Positions 3,579 to 64,000 of a DNA stretch of 64,000 nucleotides are shown here, piece after piece. A program made the position numbers and the translations under genes. Origin of the DNA: Shewanella pealeana ATCC 700345 (GTDB taxonomy: Bacteria; Pseudomonadota; Gammaproteobacteria; Enterobacterales; Shewanellaceae); assembly GCF_000018285.1 (NCBI RefSeq), contig NC_009901.1, forward strand, positions 3,471,001-3,535,000, read 5' to 3'. Under the pieces are notes generated by a model. The model ran no database searches. It was given only the letters and a program-made list of their open reading frames with translations, and had not been told where the DNA came from. The stretch's first letter is position 1; each line of letters opens with the position of its first letter.

Positions 3579-4892
3579 TGGACTCCCCACTCTTTAATTC
3601 GTTACGGTATAAGTCAATTCTCACGAGATTTCGGAGTTTAAAATGAAAGGTACGATTGTTGGCGTTGATCTGGCTAAAAATGTAATTCAAGTTTGTGTCT
3701 TCACAAATAACAAGGTGCACTCAAATACTGAAATGACACCGAATGAATTTATCGACTGGCTGGCTAACTTTGCCACCGTAACCATCGTGTTCGAAGCTTG
3801 TGGAATGTCTAATTACTGGAAACAAAAAGCAATGACGTTTGGCCATGAGGCTAAGTTAATTTCAGCAAAGTTAGTCTCAGCTGTCAGGCAAAATCAAAAA
3901 ACAGACAAAAATGATGCTTTAGCGATTGTTCAGGCGGCACTCTTGCCCGAGGTCAACTTCATCACGGGTAAATCAGTCGAGCAGCAGCAACTGCAATCTA
4001 TTATGAGACTACGAGAGCTGGCTATTAAACAAAAAACGGCGATGACTAACCAGCTCACTTCATTATTAGCAGAGTTTAATCTGATGACGTCAACCAAACA
4101 TGGCGGCTTACGCGGTGTGATTGAATCAACGTTAGAAGACGCTGAAAATGATTTTTCTTCTGAGTTTCGTAACGCTCTTGCGGCGGCCTGGCAACAGTAT
4201 TTAGCTGTCGTCACATCTATAGCAACTTATGACCAGTGCTTGGAAAAGTCACTTAACACTCATCCTGAGGCTAAAAAACTATTAAAAATTGAAGGGGTGG
4301 GTACTCTCAATGCTATTAATCTTTATATCGCATTAGGTTGCGCTGATATTGGTGTTGTTTCCACAGGAAAAGATGCATCTGCCTGTATTGGATTAACGCC
4401 GATTCAATATTCTTCAGGTGGAAAGGCCAAACTGGGGTCCATAGGAAAACACGTTAAGAATAGCATTCTCAGAAGCCAGTTAATCACAGGTGCGTTGTCA
4501 GCGGTTAGTCAAATGGTCAAAAGAGAACCCAAAACGACGAAGGAGCGCTGGGTTCAGGCTTTGGTTGAGCGACGGGGTAAGAAATGCGCCGCGGTGGCGT
4601 TAGCCAATAAGACGGTCAGAACTGCCTATGCCATGCTTACACAGGGTACAGAATATAAAGCAGAGTTAATTTCAGCGTAAAAGCGTTCAAACAACAAAAA
4701 TGCACAATCGAAGATTAAAATCAGCCAGTTAAGGTAGCCCGTATCAAAGAGTCTTGAACTCGTCGTGTAGAATTATCAACTGGTTCGCGTAAATATCATA
4801 GAGCCTGAGTTCGCTACTCAATTGAGAGCTCGTACATAAGTTCGCATTTATTCTTTAAGAGTGCCTGTTTGTTGTTGACACAGGGGAGTCCA
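3579..4892 (+). mobile_element. IS110-family insertion sequence, IS1111 type
   Basis: A single transposase gene is enclosed by an inverted repeat: TGGACTCCCC at 3579-3588 and GGGGAGTCCA at 4883-4892. Such repeats are present in the IS1111 subgroup and absent from classical IS110 elements. The element is about 1.3 kb and the transposase is full length, so it may be active. In this group true ends often lie a few bases beyond the repeats, so the limits are approximate. No target duplication is expected or seen. Some IS1111 relatives insert in attC sites, and this copy sits 0.46 kb from a cassette boundary. Confidence 0.85.
3643..4680 (+). CDS. IS110/IS1111-family transposase
   Basis: This 345-residue protein has the DEDD (RuvC-like) catalytic set of IS110 transposases: Asp9 in VGVDLAKN, Glu51 in VFEACG, and Asp88/Asp91 in KTDKNDA. 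The C-terminal Transposase_20 part has a helix-hairpin-helix, IEGVGTLNAINL (about residues 216-227), and the GLTPIQYSSGGKAKLGSIGK block with the conserved serine region. Length and motifs are intact. It moves the element by a mechanism unlike DDE transposases and leaves no long target duplication. The start is ATG after CGGAG. It is the only gene inside the 3579-4892 element. Confidence 0.93.
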   Translation: MKGTIVGVDLAKNVIQVCVFTNNKVHSNTEMTPNEFIDWLANFATVTIVFEACGMSNYWKQKAMTFGHEAKLISAKLVSAVRQNQKTDKNDALAIVQAALLPEVNFITGKSVEQQQLQSIMRLRELAIKQKTAMTNQLTSLLAEFNLMTSTKHGGLRGVIESTLEDAENDFSSEFRNALAAAWQQYLAVVTSIATYDQCLEKSLNTHPEAKKLLKIEGVGTLNAINLYIALGCADIGVVSTGKDASACIGLTPIQYSSGGKAKLGSIGKHVKNSILRSQLITGALSAVSQMVKREPKTTKERWVQALVERRGKKCAAVALANKTVRTAYAMLTQGTEYKAELISA

Positions 4893-4899
4893 CATAAGA
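4681..4899. other. IS right-hand noncoding end
   Basis: About 200 bp between the transposase stop and the right inverted repeat. Long noncoding ends of this kind are normal in IS110 relatives, where they can encode guide or bridge RNAs. No specific structure could be confirmed by eye. Confidence 0.4.
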
Positions 4900-4941
4900 T
4901 ACGGCTGCGGGCTTCGGTTTCAGGGATGAAACCGCAGAGCG
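4900..4941 (+). repeat. 42-bp repeat, copy 2
   Basis: It matches 455-496 in inverted orientation at 40 of 42 positions and contains the hairpin CGGTTTCA-GGGA-TGAAACCG. It begins 7 bp after the right inverted repeat of the IS. The following sequence (to about 5060) continues as a longer repeat-like unit without a gene. Confidence 0.75.
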
Positions 4942-5068
4942 TATAGGGACATATTTACAGCGTCTCGCAGCAGTATCTGCACATGCCCGCTGGAGGCGAT
5001 TGATAGCCATGAAGCTAAAATGAAGAACACGTTTCCCCGTAGAGCCAGATCAGAGACAATGTGATGGT

Positions 5069-5192
5069 CAAGAGGGGGAAGCTGTTGCCCCCCTCTTGCC
5101 CAGGTGTGGGATGGAATCCCACGACGTTTATCAAGCGCAGCTTGATTGCTTAAGTTCAGGCGCAGCCTGATACCCTACTAGGGCTAAAGCCC
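5069..5192. repeat. Run of five tandem hairpins
   Basis: Five separate perfect inverted repeats follow each other: 5069-5098 (CAAGAGGGGG arms), 5106-5122 (GTGGGAT, loop GGA), 5130-5146 (ATCAAGC, loop GCA), 5156-5170 (TCAGGC, loop GCA) and 5181-5192 (GGGCT, loop AA). They fill the space downstream of lemA and may help stop or stabilise its transcript, but no T-tract follows any stem. Confidence 0.7.
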
Positions 5193-5203
5193 AGGCCAAT
5201 GGG

Positions 5204-5770
5204 CTATAAATTAGGTTTATACTCAAACCCAGCTTGTGCTTCACTATCACTAAAGCTTGCGATTTTCTGCTTACGTACCAAGATGCTATTAATAAGCGAG
5301 CCAGGGAACATCTCAATGGCGTTGTTAAAGTCTTCTACATTGGCGTTGAAAATACGAATTGCCGCACCAATCTGCTCTTGTTGCTCGCTAATTTCTGCCA
5401 TCAATTTCATGTACACATCAGATGCTTTAAGCTCTGGATAAGCTTCTACTGTGACTTTAAGGCCTTGCAATAACTCATTGGTGCGCTGCTCAGCTGCTGC
5501 GAGCTTTGCGGTATCAACACCGGCGCTCATATCAGCAATGGCGCTACGTAGCTCAGTCACCTTGGTTAATACTTCAGACTCGTGCAGTTTATATTGCTCG
5601 ACTAACTGCTCAACCAGAGGAATAATCTTATTCTTCTGGCGCTCTTGAGTCAGTACCGACGCCCATGCGCGATCCACAGCGTTATGTTTACCGATAATGC
5701 CGTTGTACACCATGATGATCGCGACGACCACTACGGCAACAACAATCAAGCCTATTACTGAACTATCCAT
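5204..5770 (-). CDS. lemA: LemA family protein
   Basis: This 188-residue protein has one N-terminal transmembrane helix (residues about 5-24, IGLIVVAVVVVAIIMVY) followed by YNGIIGKHNAVDRAWASV and long amphipathic helices, the architecture of the LemA family. The NxLVxxxNxVxxAWAxV block is the family signature. LemA proteins are membrane-anchored helical bundles of unclear biochemical role. The gene lies downstream of two DUF3137 membrane-protein genes on the same strand, 121 bp away. LemA and DUF3137 genes co-occur in several proteobacteria, so a shared envelope function is a reasonable inference. Confidence 0.9.
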   Translation of the reverse strand: MDSSVIGLIVVAVVVVAIIMVYNGIIGKHNAVDRAWASVLTQERQKNKIIPLVEQLVEQYKLHESEVLTKVTELRSAIADMSAGVDTAKLAAAEQRTNELLQGLKVTVEAYPELKASDVYMKLMAEISEQQEQIGAAIRIFNANVEDFNNAIEMFPGSLINSILVRKQKIASFSDSEAQAGFEYKPNL

Positions 5771-5806
5771 TTAACTTTCCTTTTTATCTTTTCTTTGACT
5801 AGTAGA

Positions 5807-5848
5807 GGGTATAACTCACTGGCTATAACCGAATGGGTATAACTGGGT
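5807..5848. repeat. Three imperfect 14-bp tandem repeats
   Basis: GGGTATAACTCACT, GGCTATAACCGAAT and GGGTATAACTGGGT lie head to tail between the DUF3137 gene and lemA. They share the core GGxTATAAC. They could be a duplicated -10-like or binding element upstream of lemA, or neutral sequence. Confidence 0.6.
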
Positions 5849-5891
5849 AAATTGTTTTGGGCTTAAAACGATTAAATACCTTGCCACCTAT

Positions 5892-7154
5892 TTAAGCGCT
5901 GACCTTAAAGTTGTTATCGCTATATCGCATCATCTCGTGCACTATTTCGAGCATTTGGTTCATTTGCTTTAACTCGGTATGTCCTGCTAATTCTTCGGCA
6001 AAGGCTTTAGGATTATCTAAACCATGTACCCGTTTAACCGCTAGTAAGTCATCGGTTACCGCCAAACACAGTCGTCCTTGTTGACCGAACTCAAATACTG
6101 GCTTTTTTAACTGCTTAGCAAATACAGCGAGCTTTTCTTCAACCGCAGGCGATAGCAAACGTGCTGCAACCATCAACTCCTTGGCATGCACTCGATATTG
6201 GCGATTAAACTCATTAGAAGCACTTTTATAGCGTTCACCTCGGCGTTTAATGCCAAAGTCATTGCTAATACTCATGTCCTCTGCAAACGGAAAATCTAAT
6301 AACACACCGTGGCGATAGTAGCTGTCTCTAACCGTTCGCGTAGTGGTTTTACCATTAGCGTCAGTGGTGGTTTCAGTGCGCTTTACAATGTAGTGAAAAC
6401 GATACAGCTGATAATCAAATTGATGAATATCGCCTTGATAAGTGCTTTTATAGAGGCTTTGAATTTCTCGTAGATCATTACCACGATCAAACTCTTTAAA
6501 ACTGGCTTCTAACTCTTTAGCCAGCTTTTTGCCCTCAAATGGCACTGCTTGTAGATTATTATTAAACAGCGCATCTTTTAAAAAGATGTTATCCGACAGC
6601 TTGTTACGCCACTTCATTCGGCTTCTAAGCCAAAACAGTATAATTACGCCTATCACGCCATTATGGGCAGCAAAACCTGAGCTCGGATACCACAAGCCCA
6701 AAAACGAGGCTAAGGTATCGAAATACATATCCCAATACCAATGCGGCCATTGTGGGATAAGATTTAGCGCCGCGCCCACAGCTGCCATCAATAGCATCCG
6801 TCCCCATTGTGGGCCGGGGATAGGTAAGCACTTACCCTTGTCTTCAAAATAGCGGGTTAATGTTGCTAAGCCCAACATCGGGTACCAGATCACACTGTAG
6901 CCCAGTGCGCTTTTAAGGATCTGCATCACAAAATCGGGGACCACTAACCCCAACTCAAAAGCTATCGGCAACAAGGCGAAAAACAACGAAAGCGCGCAGA
7001 AAAAACGATACCAGTTATCCCGGTAATCTAGTGGCCCCTCATGGTGCTCGACTCGATGCACTAATGCTATCAAGTCATCTTGGCTTTTTGCTGCTTCAAC
7101 ATCACCGCGAATAGCCGCAATATTGCGAGTCACTTGAGCGTTATAAGCCAGCAT
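5892..7154 (-). CDS. DUF3137-family membrane protein (second of tandem pair)
   Basis: The start at ATG 7152-7154 (MLAYNAQVTRN) is preferred because it aligns with the paralogue's start and follows GGGAG about 9 bp upstream. A start at 7175 adds seven residues. The 420-residue product has an N-terminal helix (SQDDLIALVHRVEHHEGPLD), two pairs of hydrophobic segments (residues about 50-160), and a soluble C-terminal half containing DALFNN, the repeated FDYQLYRFHYIVKRT-type strands and LLDFPFA. These are DUF3137 features. The function is unknown. It overlaps the end of the upstream paralogue by 14 bp, so the two are translated from one mRNA. lemA follows. Confidence 0.82.
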   Translation of the reverse strand: MLAYNAQVTRNIAAIRGDVEAAKSQDDLIALVHRVEHHEGPLDYRDNWYRFFCALSLFFALLPIAFELGLVVPDFVMQILKSALGYSVIWYPMLGLATLTRYFEDKGKCLPIPGPQWGRMLLMAAVGAALNLIPQWPHWYWDMYFDTLASFLGLWYPSSGFAAHNGVIGVIILFWLRSRMKWRNKLSDNIFLKDALFNNNLQAVPFEGKKLAKELEASFKEFDRGNDLREIQSLYKSTYQGDIHQFDYQLYRFHYIVKRTETTTDANGKTTTRTVRDSYYRHGVLLDFPFAEDMSISNDFGIKRRGERYKSASNEFNRQYRVHAKELMVAARLLSPAVEEKLAVFAKQLKKPVFEFGQQGRLCLAVTDDLLAVKRVHGLDNPKAFAEELAGHTELKQMNQMLEIVHEMMRYSDNNFKVSA

Positions 7155-14026: not shown

Positions 14027-14105
14027 TTTTTAATTTCTTCGCTAAATACGAATGGAGGCCGACTGAACTGGTGGGATATAGCATAGATATCTGTTTACAC
14101 CTGCC

Positions 14106-14325
14106 CTATCAGTAGCGCTCCATAGCCATATTAATGGTTCGTCATTAATATAAAAATTCTTATCTTCCAGATAAGAAATACTATGGCAGTGCTGTCCCTA
14201 TTTGGTCACAGCCCCAGCAACTAGCCCCGATATGCTATGTCACTTCGGCATCAAATCCTTTCTCGATAGATCAGCGGCATCACCCTACTTATCGATACTG
14301 ATATTTAATGCACCTCTACTTCTCA
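14106..14325 (-). promoter_or_regulatory. Lysine riboswitch (L-box)
   Basis: On the minus strand the leader shows the L-box blocks in order: AGTAGAGGTGC (near 14320), GTAGGGTGATGCCG, GATGCCGAAGTGACATAGC, GCTGGGGCTGTGACC (near 14210), GCACTGCCATAGTATTT and CTATGGAGCGCTACTG (14125-14110). The last block closes helix P1 with the first. Lysine binding is expected to lower expression of the downstream transporter. The switch ends about 80 bp before the start codon, and no T-tract terminator is seen, so control may be at translation. Confidence 0.88.
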
Positions 14326-14371
14326 GGACGCAATTTAAGGCTAGCTCAAAAAGCGTGACGGACATAAAAAC

Positions 14372-53081: not shown

Positions 53082-53230
53082 TTTATTTACCTTAAATAAA
53101 TTAGGGGTTAGACCTCCACATATCCCATATCTTCGACCCAATAAGGGCACCCCGAAGAACGTGTCGATATGTGTGTGATTTAGTATTTATCAATAGCCAT
53201 GTATAATGGCCGCCATCTTAACTCGGGCGA
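53082..53230 (-). promoter_or_regulatory. rpsB promoter and 5' leader
   Basis: On the minus strand a TTGACT box near 53265 and CATTATACATGG near 53200-53210 resemble promoter elements. The transcribed part contains a TTCTTCGGGGTGCCC...GGGTCGAAGA structure (about 53155-53120) and TGGAGGTCTAACCCC just before the gene. Gamma-proteobacterial rpsB leaders form an S2-binding structure here. The match is by eye. Confidence 0.45.
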
Positions 53231-60207: not shown

Positions 60208-60528
60208 TTATGGTGCATGACTCAACAATGCATCTAGCTCAGTGAGCAGCTGAATGACTCGCTTATACTCAATGTTAGCGGCCCAAACATGTTCCGCCAT
60301 TGGTGCTATCGATATCGCTGTCGGTAGCGGCATTTGATTGTCTATCAAGTAATGCATTTTCGGTAAGAATATAAACTGTAACCATTGCTCAAATGGCATC
60401 ACATCGCACGCAAATGGCGTAGTGCTAGCCAACGCTTGCTCTGTTGGTGCAACTGTACTTAACAAGCCTTGTTTCGCCAACTCGGTTTCTAAAGCTAATA
60501 GCTTTTCCCTTGCATTTACAGTTCTCAA
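60208..60528 (-). CDS. yqcC: YqcC family protein
   Basis: A 106-residue helical protein of the YqcC family (Pfam DUF446). It shows TPFACDVMPFEQWLQFIFLPKMHYLIDNQMPLP, conserved in the family, and an NIEYKRVIQLLTELDALL C-terminal helix. The function is unknown. It begins the yqcC-truC-yqcA transcript, divergent from the DUF3549 gene. Confidence 0.9.
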   Translation of the reverse strand: MRTVNAREKLLALETELAKQGLLSTVAPTEQALASTTPFACDVMPFEQWLQFIFLPKMHYLIDNQMPLPTAISIAPMAEHVWAANIEYKRVIQLLTELDALLSHAP

Positions 60529-60649: not shown

Positions 60650-61663
60650 ATGACTCAAATAACAACTCTCAGCGATTTTTTAAAAACGGCTAATACTCAA
60701 TTCCAAGTTTACGACATGGGCCGTCGAGTACAACATATCGATATGATGGCGTTTCATCAGATAGAAGAGCTACACTGCCCTTACCCTGCACCTATCCAAG
60801 GACACGCGCAGTTTGCCATTGTGTTCTGGGATGCCAGCCAGCAACACTATATTTGGTTTATTAAACTTCCTCTCGATGAGCGTGGATTATTGTCTCCTGC
60901 ACCACGAACACAATTCATCAAAATGATTGTTGAAGCCCTAGGTCGTGATCCGACTCAGCCTCTAACCGAGCAGCAGCAAGAGCAATTAGCTAATCATCCA
61001 TTTAATTTTAAACCGAGCCAAGAGAAACTGGCTGTCTTTAACGCCTTAGTCCGCAAGCAACTAGGCCAAAAAGCATCGCCACAGTATGAGTTTGCTTATC
61101 AATACCTGTCAGGGCAACATCCGAGTGAAAACTGGCAAAATATCGGCCTACAAGGCATTGCTGATGTGTGCATCAGAGCCAACGAGCTTGACCACCAAGC
61201 CCAGCTGACAAACGGCTTTGATAATTGGGCTATAGAGGTTCAAGTTGCGGTGTGCCAATGTTTAGAGCACTTAAATATTGATGAAACACTGGCGATGAAA
61301 ATATTGAATAAGTTCGATAGTGCTGAAGATAGCGATAAGGCCTATTTTCTGCGTGCTTTAGCGTCCCGCCCTGAACTTAGTCAACAAGCAATTGCGAGCT
61401 TAAATAACGCTAACGCTTTATCCGCCGAGATGCTCATTACTATTGCAGCACGTAACTGGTCGGCATTAAAAGATGAGCAAACTCTCACTATCTACTTAGA
61501 AGCCTTAGCAAAACAGCAACAACACTTCTTTAACCAGATTTTTGCTGATATTGTGGCTATTCCATTAATTCGCACTCAGCTACTCGCTCAACTACGTAAT
61601 CCAAATCGTAGCACAGAGCTTGCAACTGCAATCGGCGGTTTGTTCAAGGTAACGAAAGGATGA
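60650..61663 (+). CDS. DUF3549 family protein
   Basis: A 337-residue protein, soluble, mostly helical after residue 100. The N-terminal block has YDMGRRVQHIDMMAFHQIE and AQFAIVFWD...YIWFIKLPLDERGLL, typical of DUF3549 proteins in Shewanella and Vibrio. The C-terminal half looks like HEAT-type repeated helices (for example ALASRPELSQQAIASL). The role is unknown. Its stop overlaps the start of the DUF3301 gene (ATGA), and the pair is conserved beside yqcC. Confidence 0.85.
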   Translation: MTQITTLSDFLKTANTQFQVYDMGRRVQHIDMMAFHQIEELHCPYPAPIQGHAQFAIVFWDASQQHYIWFIKLPLDERGLLSPAPRTQFIKMIVEALGRDPTQPLTEQQQEQLANHPFNFKPSQEKLAVFNALVRKQLGQKASPQYEFAYQYLSGQHPSENWQNIGLQGIADVCIRANELDHQAQLTNGFDNWAIEVQVAVCQCLEHLNIDETLAMKILNKFDSAEDSDKAYFLRALASRPELSQQAIASLNNANALSAEMLITIAARNWSALKDEQTLTIYLEALAKQQQHFFNQIFADIVAIPLIRTQLLAQLRNPNRSTELATAIGGLFKVTKG

Positions 61664-62055
61664 TGACAGATTTTTTGATTATTGCCGCAGTGATCATGGT
61701 TGCTGCATTTTTTTGGCAATTGAGGCAAATGGCTGAAATAAGCCGTGTTTTTACTAATAAAGAGTGCCAAAAACAAAAAGTTCAGCTGCTCGCGATTGCA
61801 CAAGAATCCGCAAAACCTAGCCTTGGCGGCAGCAGTGGATTGACCTGGAAAGTTAAATATCTATTTGAATTTAGCACCGATGGTATCAATCAGTATCGTG
61901 GTAACTTATGGATGCACGGTAAAAAGATACAAAAAATACAGTGGCCAATATTCCCTGAGCCAGAGTGGAGTGAAGCGCCAGAGGCGAAGGGGTCGTTAGG
62001 TGGTGGATGTGGCGGACGCTCTCGAGGTGGTTGTAATTCAGGCCGTTGTAAATAA
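61660..62055 (+). CDS. DUF3301 family membrane-anchored protein
   Basis: A 131-residue protein. One N-terminal membrane helix (residues 4-21, FLIIAAVIMVAAFFWQL) precedes a soluble domain with WKVKYLFEFSTDG...YRGNLWMHGKKIQKIQWP, the DUF3301 signature. The tail is rich in Gly and Cys (GGGCGGRSRGGCNSGRCK), suggesting metal binding or thiol chemistry; this is inference only. It is translationally coupled to the DUF3549 gene. A bidirectional terminator follows. Confidence 0.85.
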   Translation: MMTDFLIIAAVIMVAAFFWQLRQMAEISRVFTNKECQKQKVQLLAIAQESAKPSLGGSSGLTWKVKYLFEFSTDGINQYRGNLWMHGKKIQKIQWPIFPEPEWSEAPEAKGSLGGGCGGRSRGGCNSGRCK

Positions 62056-62081
62056 ATATCCGCAACACCAGCCCTGAATGA

Positions 62082-62450
62082 AGTAAAGGCACGGCCCCAG
62101 AGGAGACGTGCCTTTTCTATTTTTGTGTAAGCTCATCCAGCTATATGAGTGCTCCCTGCACCATCCATGCGTAACTTTGCTCCTGCATCATCCATGAACC
62201 TTACTCTTCCTTGTACCTTACGATACATGTCCATTTGTTCTCGGTATTCCATTTACCAAGCTTGCTCTATCCTGAGCGTGCCCAACATCTTCCTTGAGAA
62301 TCCATTCAGATACCTTCCGTAGCATTCCACCTTCCTAGGTAGTAAACCTTCCATCCTGGAGTGTTTAGCCGCCCTTGGTCGTATCCTTAGATGTCGTTCC
62401 TTCAACACCAGATTATCCTGAACCTTTGAGATAACCAGCTTCCTTGCACA
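62082..62450 (-). ncRNA. csrC: CsrB/CsrC-family regulatory RNA (copy A)
   Basis: Read on the minus strand this gene-free stretch has about 18 GGA motifs, many as AGGA or GGATG. Several sit in loops of short stems: GCTCAGGATAGAGC (62277-62264), TTCAGGATAATCTGG, and CTCCAGGATGGA near 62360. It ends in a terminator (GGCACG...CGTGCC, T-rich) at 62085-62115. Such RNAs sequester the translational regulator CsrA. The 5' end, at about 62450, is set by a TATTTATAT-like -10 and is approximate. A UvrY-type palindrome lies about 170-180 bp upstream. The csrC symbol is by convention, since B and C cannot be told apart. Confidence 0.85.
62085..62122. terminator. Bidirectional terminator between the DUF3301 gene and csrC-type RNA
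   Basis: AAAGGCACG (62085-62093) and CGTGCCTTT (62107-62115) form a 9-bp stem. On the plus strand TTTTCTATTTTTG follows, serving the DUF3301 gene. On the minus strand it ends the RNA with TTTACTTC. Confidence 0.88.
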
Positions 62451-62619
62451 TATAAATAATAATTCAAAAGTTAACTAAAAATACGGGGTTAAACATTTAT
62501 TTAACATGCCAGTTATCAAGCGTCACGATTGCACTACTTGTTAATTAACTGTATTTAATGAGTTTATTGATAAATCCCTAGACTTAACAACCATAAGTAG
62601 GACTCATTTCTTACGAAGC
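62451..62619. other. Promoter region of copy A RNA
   Basis: AT-rich, no gene. Holds the presumed promoter of the RNA at 62082-62450 between the UvrY-type site and the RNA start. Confidence 0.5.
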
Positions 62620-62637
62620 TGTAAGAGATCTCTCACA
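62620..62637. promoter_or_regulatory. UvrY/GacA-type binding site for copy A RNA
   Basis: TGTAAGAGATCTCTCACA is an 18-bp near-perfect palindrome matching the TGTRAG-N6-CTYACA site that UvrY (GacA/SirA) binds upstream of csrB/csrC in enterobacteria. It lies about 170-180 bp before the predicted RNA start, the spacing known for E. coli. Confidence 0.75.
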
Positions 62638-62670
62638 TCAAAGTAACTAATAGTCCTAATCAGCATTGGA

Positions 62671-63000
62671 AAAAGAAAGGGCGTACCATTCGGTACGCCC
62701 TAGCACTACTTTATTTTAGCTTTCCCGCTATAAACGTGCATTCCCTGCATCATCCTTGGTTAACTTGCTTCCAGCATCTTCCTTGTAAATCCATTTATAT
62801 CCTTGTACTTACGTACCGAATCCTTTCATTAGCTTATCCTAAGCTAAATTCCTCTTCCTGAGGTTGTCCTTGTTGCATCCTGCAAAACCATTATGTTCAA
62901 CTAAAAAAGCTTGATAAGCATAAGTTTAGGCAAAAATAATTGGTTTCATTACTAAACAACTAGAAAGAGCTAAGTGCTATCCTTAGTACTCGTCACTTTC
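62671..63000 (-). ncRNA. csrB: CsrB/CsrC-family regulatory RNA (copy B)
   Basis: On the minus strand, about 13 GGA motifs alternate with short stems. Perfect examples with AGGA in the loop are TTAGCTTAGGATAAGCTAA (62847-62829), CCTCAGGAAGAGG (62863-62851) and TTGCAGGATGCAA (near 62884-62872). The 12-mer GGATGATGCAGG near the 3' part is shared with copy A. The terminator GGGCGTACC-GAAT-GGTACGCCC-TTTCTTTTT is at 62700-62671. The 5' end is approximate: an AGGA hairpin at about 62990 suggests a start near 63000. E. coli csrB also lies beside yqcC. Confidence 0.87.
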
Positions 63001-63170
63001 TGATGATAAGTTTACTCATAAACCTAAGATTTTTCTTACCGAACATTAAAGACACATGTGCACAACAAACAACCAACAAGACGAGCTTTGCATAACATAT
63101 TGATTTTTAGATATTTAAAACCCAGAGCCAACTATTATCTTCATGTTCCCCAATTTATCTCCCACAGCAA

Positions 63171-63188
63171 GGTGAGAGATCTCGCACA
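63171..63188. promoter_or_regulatory. UvrY/GacA-type binding site for copy B RNA
   Basis: GGTGAGAGATCTCGCACA shares the AGAGATCTC core and 14 of 18 positions with the site at 62620. It lies about 180 bp before the proposed start of copy B. Confidence 0.65.
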
Positions 63189-63212
63189 TAATCACTGTCT
63201 CAAAGCGAATAA

Positions 63213-63515
63213 TCAGTACTTTCTATGAGTTAGCGCTCTATACAACATTACCCAATCCGCCATAAAGCTATACAAAGGGTATTTGAAAGTCGCTGGCCTA
63301 TTTTGCTCAAAAACAAAGTGCCCGATCCAAGCAAAGCCATAACCTATTACGGGTAACAGCAATAACATGCCCCATTGCGAATTTAACACACAATAAACTA
63401 GTGTTAGGATCACCAAGCAACTTCCAATGTAGTGAAGTATTCGGCATGTCTTATCTTGGTGTTGCGAAAGATAAAAAGGATAAAACTCAGCAAATGAGGA
63501 GTAAGGTTTATTCAT
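63213..63515 (-). CDS. Mpo1-like (DUF962) membrane protein
   Basis: A 100-residue protein with two or three hydrophobic helices and the DUF962 signature: an early FYLSQHQDKTCRILHYIG with conserved His residues, then GYGFAWIGHFVFEQNRPATFKYPLYSFMADW. In yeast the relative Mpo1 is an iron-dependent dioxygenase acting on 2-hydroxy fatty acids; the histidines are kept here. The bacterial role is not established. The gene overlaps the GNAT gene by eight bases and is probably co-transcribed with it. Confidence 0.9.
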   Translation of the reverse strand: MNKPYSSFAEFYPFYLSQHQDKTCRILHYIGSCLVILTLVYCVLNSQWGMLLLLPVIGYGFAWIGHFVFEQNRPATFKYPLYSFMADWVMLYRALTHRKY

Positions 63516-64000
63516 TCACCAGTCCTCTATAGAACAGTAGCTCTCCGCTTACTTTACCTATGGTAAGGGGCTCTATCATTTCAAAACCATGGTGTGTAAA
63601 TAGTTTGATATGAGCGGAATGGTTGGCAAATACTCCGATGCCATCAAGATGAGGCTGTTCATCACACCAACTCAGTACGGCGTTCACCAGTAGTCCACCA
63701 TAGCCCTTACCTTGCTCATTATTGGCAATCGCGATAAATTGCAAAATACCGCACTGCTTGCTGGGCAAGTTTTCGATTATTTGGTTTTCTTTATTAATCA
63801 GGGCTTGAGTTGATTGCCAGCCTGCACTTAACAGCATTTTTAGCCGCCAGTGCCAATAACGAGCCTCACCTAAGGGCACTTGTTGAGTCACGATACAGGC
63901 TACCCCCACCAATCGCGCCCCTGCGAACATACCAATAAGCGCTTGCTCTTGTTGCCACAATTCATTCAATTCTTCTCTAATAGCGCCACGCAATTTTTGT
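63508..64000 (-). CDS. GNAT-family N-acetyltransferase, 5' end outside window
   Basis: The frame is open to the window end. A TTG near 63993 is unlikely to be the true start, because upstream codons are still coding-like and GNAT N-termini are longer. At least 161 residues are visible. The acetyl-CoA loop QGKGYGGLLVNAVLSWC (Q/RxxGxG/A) near residue 97 is the family mark, with HIKLFTHHGFEMIEPL typical of the end. The acceptor is unknown. It shares an operon with the Mpo1-like gene. Confidence 0.85.
   Translation of the reverse strand, partial: QKLRGAIREELNELWQQEQALIGMFAGARLVGVACIVTQQVPLGEARYWHWRLKMLLSAGWQSTQALINKENQIIENLPSKQCGILQFIAIANNEQGKGYGGLLVNAVLSWCDEQPHLDGIGVFANHSAHIKLFTHHGFEMIEPLTIGKVSGELLFYRGLVNE

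Follow-up and report, generated by a model that had tools for sequence, protein, structure and literature searches.

Two tandem CsrB-type RNA genes in Shewanella pealeana, probable counterparts of csrB1 and csrB2

In Shewanella oneidensis MR-1, the genes csrB1 and csrB2 flank a transposase gene (SO_1616), as reported in 2011 (PMC3171408). According to the available text of that report, the two genes had been predicted in an earlier paper cited there, and Northern signals were obtained for both RNAs. Their expression fell more than 100-fold when uvrY or barA was mutated, and a csrB1 csrB2 double deletion gave growth like that of the uvrY mutant. Growth phase altered csrB1 and not csrB2, and a third predicted RNA (CsrC) was independent of BarA/UvrY (PMC3171408). 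The same report states that csrB1 and csrB2 are adjacent in other species, for example S. putrefaciens CN-32; the pair is thus already known for Shewanella. Other sources touch on the genus briefly in their available parts: PMC4682653 names Shewanella a single time, when listing BarA/UvrY homologues that had been missed, and PMC5471319 gives a hit of the CsrC model for S. piezotolerans and is silent on the locus described here.

Neighbouring duplicates of CsrA/RsmA sponge RNAs are also found in rsmX-1/rsmX-2 of Pseudomonas brassicacearum (PMC7911923) and csrB2/csrB3 of Aliivibrio salmonicida (PMC6262261). However, the rsmX RNAs are only about 110 nt long (PMC7911923), and the copies of the Vibrio csrB duplications are in separate synteny groups (PMC6262261). 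Three Csr RNAs are described in Pseudoalteromonas (PMC11882849), and sibling sRNAs are treated in PMC4211561. Enterobacterial CsrB (RF00018) is likewise a GGA-rich sponge RNA near yqcC-truC, but in that arrangement there is one copy, without a DUF3549 or DUF3301 hit between. An order-level relative (G173, L130) has this single type, with a 329-bit csrB match and a box directly before yqcC and truC.

In the present study, we analyzed a stretch of 64,000 nucleotides of the S. pealeana ATCC 700345 genome (the window). No ORF of at least 60 aa lies wholly inside 62056-63212, in agreement with an earlier note on this DNA in which the stretch was called gene-free. The minus strand carries two putative CsrB-type sRNAs: RNA A, proximal to the DUF3301 gene (62077-62449, about 370 nt, with both ends predicted), and RNA B, proximal to the Mpo1-like gene (about 62672-62994, about 320 nt, with an uncertain start). 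They are on the same strand with about 220 bp between them. The DUF3301 gene (61660-62055, plus strand, PF11743) is the convergent neighbour of RNA A, and the Mpo1-like gene (63213-63515, minus strand, PF06127) lies upstream of RNA B. The locus had been described as lying beside yqcC; it does belong to the yqcC-truC neighbourhood, although two genes, for DUF3549 and DUF3301, separate the yqcC-type gene (DUF446; 60208-60528, minus strand, PF04287) from RNA A. The element also continues beyond the span proposed earlier (62082-63000), because the box of RNA B is at 63171-63188. The gene order GNAT, Mpo1-like, csrB, csrB, DUF3301, DUF3549, yqcC, truC recurs in the fetched Shewanella loci, and all 16 named loci of the DUF3301 protein relatives (68-98% identity) are from Shewanella.

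We propose, with a probability of about 0.94, that RNAs A and B are the counterparts of Shewanella csrB1/csrB2, namely separately transcribed, BarA/UvrY-switched CsrA sponges that go back to an ancient duplication. As in S. oneidensis, where control by BarA/UvrY is documented (PMC3171408), there are two csrB genes at one locus with UvrY/GacA-type boxes; however, SO_1616 lies between the copies in MR-1 and nothing lies between A and B here. By analogy with the published relatives, A and B are probably transcribed, dependent on UvrY and able to titrate CsrA, an ability for which genetic support exists in the case of the S. oneidensis RNAs (PMC11045786).

In a permissive Rfam scan covering 61900-63300, Infernal matched RF00018 (CsrB/RsmB) over the full model to both RNA B (62.5 bits, E 5.5e-16, 63025-62669, model 1-356) and RNA A (31.1 bits, E 1.7e-6, 62411-62075, model 1-356), in each case below the gathering score of 71. 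For this reason the two are missing from the gathering-threshold scan of the window, which gave no CsrB and listed only a lysine riboswitch (14105-14326, minus strand, 112.3 bits) and a t44 RNA (53107-53195, minus strand, 76.9 bits), both ordinary. For each segment the top-scoring member of the clan was RF00018, two lower overlapping clan matches being omitted from the output, and the idea of a csrB paired with a csrC was not borne out. In E. coli, csrC is at a different locus from csrB.

Across Shewanella, RF00018 matched at E <= 1 in 95 of 97 genomes, and the gathering score was exceeded in 4 of the 97; annotation that relies on this score would therefore leave the locus empty in most of them. 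At least two matches anywhere in the genome were found in 62/97, a count made with strict filters that dropped one of the two in the S. pealeana genome. The genome G092, without a match under the strict filters, gave one weak match (19.4 bits) in a fuller search, and G079 gave no CsrB match in either the strict or the fuller RF00018 search. In the fuller search of the S. pealeana genome, A and B were recovered, the remainder being short matches of about 15 bits. A third csrB in this genome was considered and rejected, the candidate consisting of just two overlapping short matches at one place (15.7 and 14.3 bits). Additional weak matches unlinked to the locus were seen elsewhere in the genus, at G001:C53:57308-57567 (32.8 bits) and G043:C1:105165-105415 (25.4 bits); these are possible further csrB-like genes.

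The minus strand of 62056-63230 contains 39 GGA and 21 AGGA, compared with 4 GGA on the plus strand. The RNA A segment (62075-62450) and the RNA B segment (62670-63010) contain 10 AGGA apiece, whereas their shuffles averaged 3.5 and 2.6, respectively; neither count was equalled in 500 dinucleotide shuffles, and the count of GGA alone was equalled in 1/500 (A) and 0/500 (B). When both strands of the window were scanned in steps of 50 bases, the AGGA-richest 350-nt windows were those at the locus of A and B. Together with the two RF00018 matches, this AGGA excess bears out the earlier description of two GGA-rich RNAs arranged head to tail on the minus strand. The 12-mer GGATGATGCAGG, which had been noted as common to them, is indeed present in RNA A (62182-62193, minus strand) and RNA B (62744-62755, minus strand), and two copies arose in 0/100 shuffles. 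Since both Rfam scores are below the gathering score, one might ask if the GGA richness is due to chance or to an unrelated transcript. However, the AGGA counts reached in none of 500 shuffles, the lack of an inner ORF, and the recurrence of two GGA-rich boxed units at this position in 44 of the 51 genomes scored (see below) make this scarcely conceivable.

In both RNAs, many of the AGGA/GGA sites are predicted to be unpaired, either in loops or in single-stranded parts. The mean unpaired fraction of GGA was 0.64 in RNA A (background 0.43; as high in 2/5000 permutations) and 0.63 in RNA B (background 0.40; 16/5000). In the minimum-energy folds, 6 of the 20 GGA of A and 4 of the 14 of B are in hairpin loops, compared with a background fraction of 0.06; the earlier note had described several AGGA-loop stems in each RNA. 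The fold as a whole is better conserved in B: the consensus fold of the 19 rows for B had an energy of -109.9, against a mean of -37.8 for 20 column-permuted alignments, while that of 19 A rows (-64.3) was no better than the column-permuted mean (-66.7). Single-sequence folding relative to shuffles was weakly better for A (z -1.46) and gave z -3.39 for B. Two-sided changes were seen in 13/70 pairs of A and 6/56 pairs of B, these being raw counts without a control.

The predicted start of RNA A at about 62449 is based on the conservation of a -10 element and a GTGCAAGGAAGC-like block in a 19-row alignment. The -10-like element, TATTAT (62456-62461, minus strand), was read from the sequence, falls in a conserved block of the alignment and is absent from the promoter scan list. 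Upstream of it is the promoter-region element ATGTTAAATAAATGTTTAA (62489-62507, minus strand), of which the ATGTTAAAT part is conserved in the 19 rows; the complete 19-mer has no second occurrence in the window. At the other end, a terminator-like hairpin (about 62085-62115, minus strand) was read from the sequence and has a 9-bp stem in the folds, and the terminator scan listed it on neither strand. Judged visually, the hairpin has a poor T-run when read on the minus strand and a stronger one in the opposite direction, which makes it a weak terminator for RNA A that may also serve the plus-strand DUF3301 gene.

For RNA B, the start at about 62994 follows from a TATCAT that is kept in the nearest relatives. 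In 19 rows, conservation of RNA B is poor in the 5' part and strong from about 62888 on. A possible alternative is a start near 62883, giving an RNA of about 210 nt, where the sigma-70 scan found a promoter-like pair with 9 of 12 letters; this pair is weak, because the scan found 5 sites against a shuffle mean of 5.8. The intrinsic terminator of RNA B (62678-62701, minus strand), with a 10-bp stem and a U-rich tail, was found both by the scan and in the fold; over 61500-64000 the scan gave 5 sites against a shuffle mean of 2.2. Thus, of the two terminators claimed in the earlier note, that of B agrees with a scan match and that of A is reduced to the weak, possibly shared hairpin. As A and B are on the same strand and so close together, they could be made as one long read-through RNA instead of two sRNAs. 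The terminator at the end of B and the separate box and -10-like element of A speak for two transcripts. In S. oneidensis, too, Northern sizes were read as separate transcripts, although the transposase gene intervenes in that species and further bands, of about 600 and 700, were seen for csrB2 (PMC3171408, available text). We regard a single read-through RNA as very unlikely.

Upstream of each gene is a palindromic box of the UvrY/GacA type described in PMC3171408. The box of RNA A, TGTGAGAGATCTCTTACA (62620-62637, minus strand), has no mismatch and sits about 170 bp upstream of the predicted start; that of RNA B, TGTGCGAGATCTCTCACC (63171-63188, minus strand), has one mismatch, and both are kept in relatives. 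In the 5.17-Mb single-contig genome, the pattern TGTNNGAGATCTCNNACA occurs without mismatch at one place, the RNA A box, and with one mismatch at two places, the RNA B box and G000:C1:4210586-4210603, the latter a UvrY-like box beyond the csrB locus. With up to two mismatches, 12 places were found against 9 for the reversed control, and thus weak boxes alone are little proof. The genome has one CsrA-family match, over the cut-off (92.5 bits), and one match over the cut-off for each of the UvrY (417 bits) and BarA (1372 bits) families, the others being under it. The features by which a BarA/UvrY-controlled Csr sRNA is recognized, that is, a box upstream of each gene and csrA, uvrY and barA in the genome, are therefore all found here. 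On the model of the relatives, BarA would phosphorylate UvrY, which would bind the box upstream of each csrB gene and turn on both; the AGGA/GGA sites of each RNA, several of them in hairpin loops, would then bind CsrA, withdrawing it from mRNA leaders by titration.

We counted boxed units, each defined as a box (up to two mismatches) followed by at least five AGGA, at loci that were best-scoring or hand-picked and hence not a random sample. From 66 distinct Shewanella genomes, including that of S. pealeana, 15 were left out; the remaining 59 entries, less 8 duplicate fetches, gave 51 distinct scored genomes, with two units in 44, one in 6 and three in 1 (G043). Of those left out, 14 had an Mpo1-to-DUF3301 stretch longer than 2300 bases (the copies being more widely spaced or one flank not being found), and one, G073 (L014), was removed by hand. 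Among these 15, a pair of GGA clusters within a single stretch is seen in ten (G095, G049, G086, G044, G056, G068, G020, G035, G061 and G023), G055 has a strong and a weak cluster, G025 and G052 have two lone clusters at separate places, and in G073 and G005 a single cluster is present. In G025 (L052/L053) and G052 (L054/L055), the csrB copies are widely separated and the flanking genes are shared out, half beside each copy, as if a rearrangement had broken the locus between the two. Four of the six one-unit genomes (G001, G028, G042 and G060) have another GGA cluster that lacks a box within two mismatches, and G094 has one merged GGA cluster. In the sixth, G011 (L063, about 5125-6084), there is one merged AGGA cluster, and the second of two perfect boxes is followed by fewer than five AGGA; its B copy may have been lost or much reduced. 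In L039 of G043 (4020-5767), the middle one of three boxed csrB units is nearly identical to A and, judged from the sequence, is a recent extra duplication.

The A and B units themselves are much less alike, their best local matches being 47/63 and 29/35 bases. In a tree of 91 units from the 45 genomes with at least two boxed units (45 A, 45 B and 1 middle copy), the A copies cluster together and so do the B copies, the exception being a long-branched B row (G026) that falls within the A group. Label changes numbered 3 for A and 2 for B, against shuffled means of 30.7 and 30.6, and were as low in 0/500 shuffles; support values are SH-aLRT only, and several B branches are very long. Because of this grouping, the A/B duplication is most likely older than the sampled Shewanella species, and the pair would mostly have been kept in the same place since then. 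The low A-B similarity and the tree speak against a recent duplication, and the local duplication suspected before does not stand as a recent or unusual event, the pair being published for the genus.

B copies account for most of the longest terminal branches in the tree. Taken with the variable 5' part of B and the reduced second unit of G011, this raises the possibility that a single functional CsrB is left and that the faster-changing B is decaying. However, B outscores A against Rfam in S. pealeana and has the better conserved fold. Furthermore, both RNAs work in S. oneidensis, where the double mutant regains siderophore synthesis when either one is supplied in trans (PMC11045786, available text), although B may be the counterpart of either csrB1 or csrB2 of that species. 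Decay of B is therefore improbable, and two working sponges remain the preferred reading.

A more tentative suggestion, which we consider doubtful at present, is that the two RNAs divide the work, with A answering UvrY in one way and the faster-changing B, with its lineage-specific 5' sequence, taking other inputs. The distance from the A box to the first AGGA is about 175 bp in many species, A has its own conserved element in the promoter region, and the unequal conservation of the upstream regions makes a regulatory difference between A and B plausible. A and B have also remained distinct, and the sampled genomes give no clear indication of gene conversion between them. The growth-phase variation of csrB1 and its lack in csrB2 (PMC3171408, available text) would fit such a division, A being the counterpart of one or the other. 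With sibling CsrA sponges conserved side by side, the locus may be useful for understanding why bacteria keep several of them.

Beyond the genus, a match was found in 109 of 197 order-level genomes, from which 15 stretches were picked by hand, those of G173, G171 and G105 among them. In G171 (family f15), a boxed double csrB lies between an Mpo1-like gene and DUF3549-yqcC-truC, and in G105 (family f10), a boxed double csrB adjoins DUF3549-yqcC-truC. Several other order-level stretches have tandem csrB genes in different neighbourhoods. In one order-level relative (G104, L117), five tandem CsrB-type RNAs lie about 0.7 kb apart on the minus strand (3891-6916), each scoring 80-91 bits, over the gathering score, and units 3 and 4 are 98% identical. 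A box with up to two mismatches is present there only upstream of the first unit, and the others keep the half TGTGAGAGATC.
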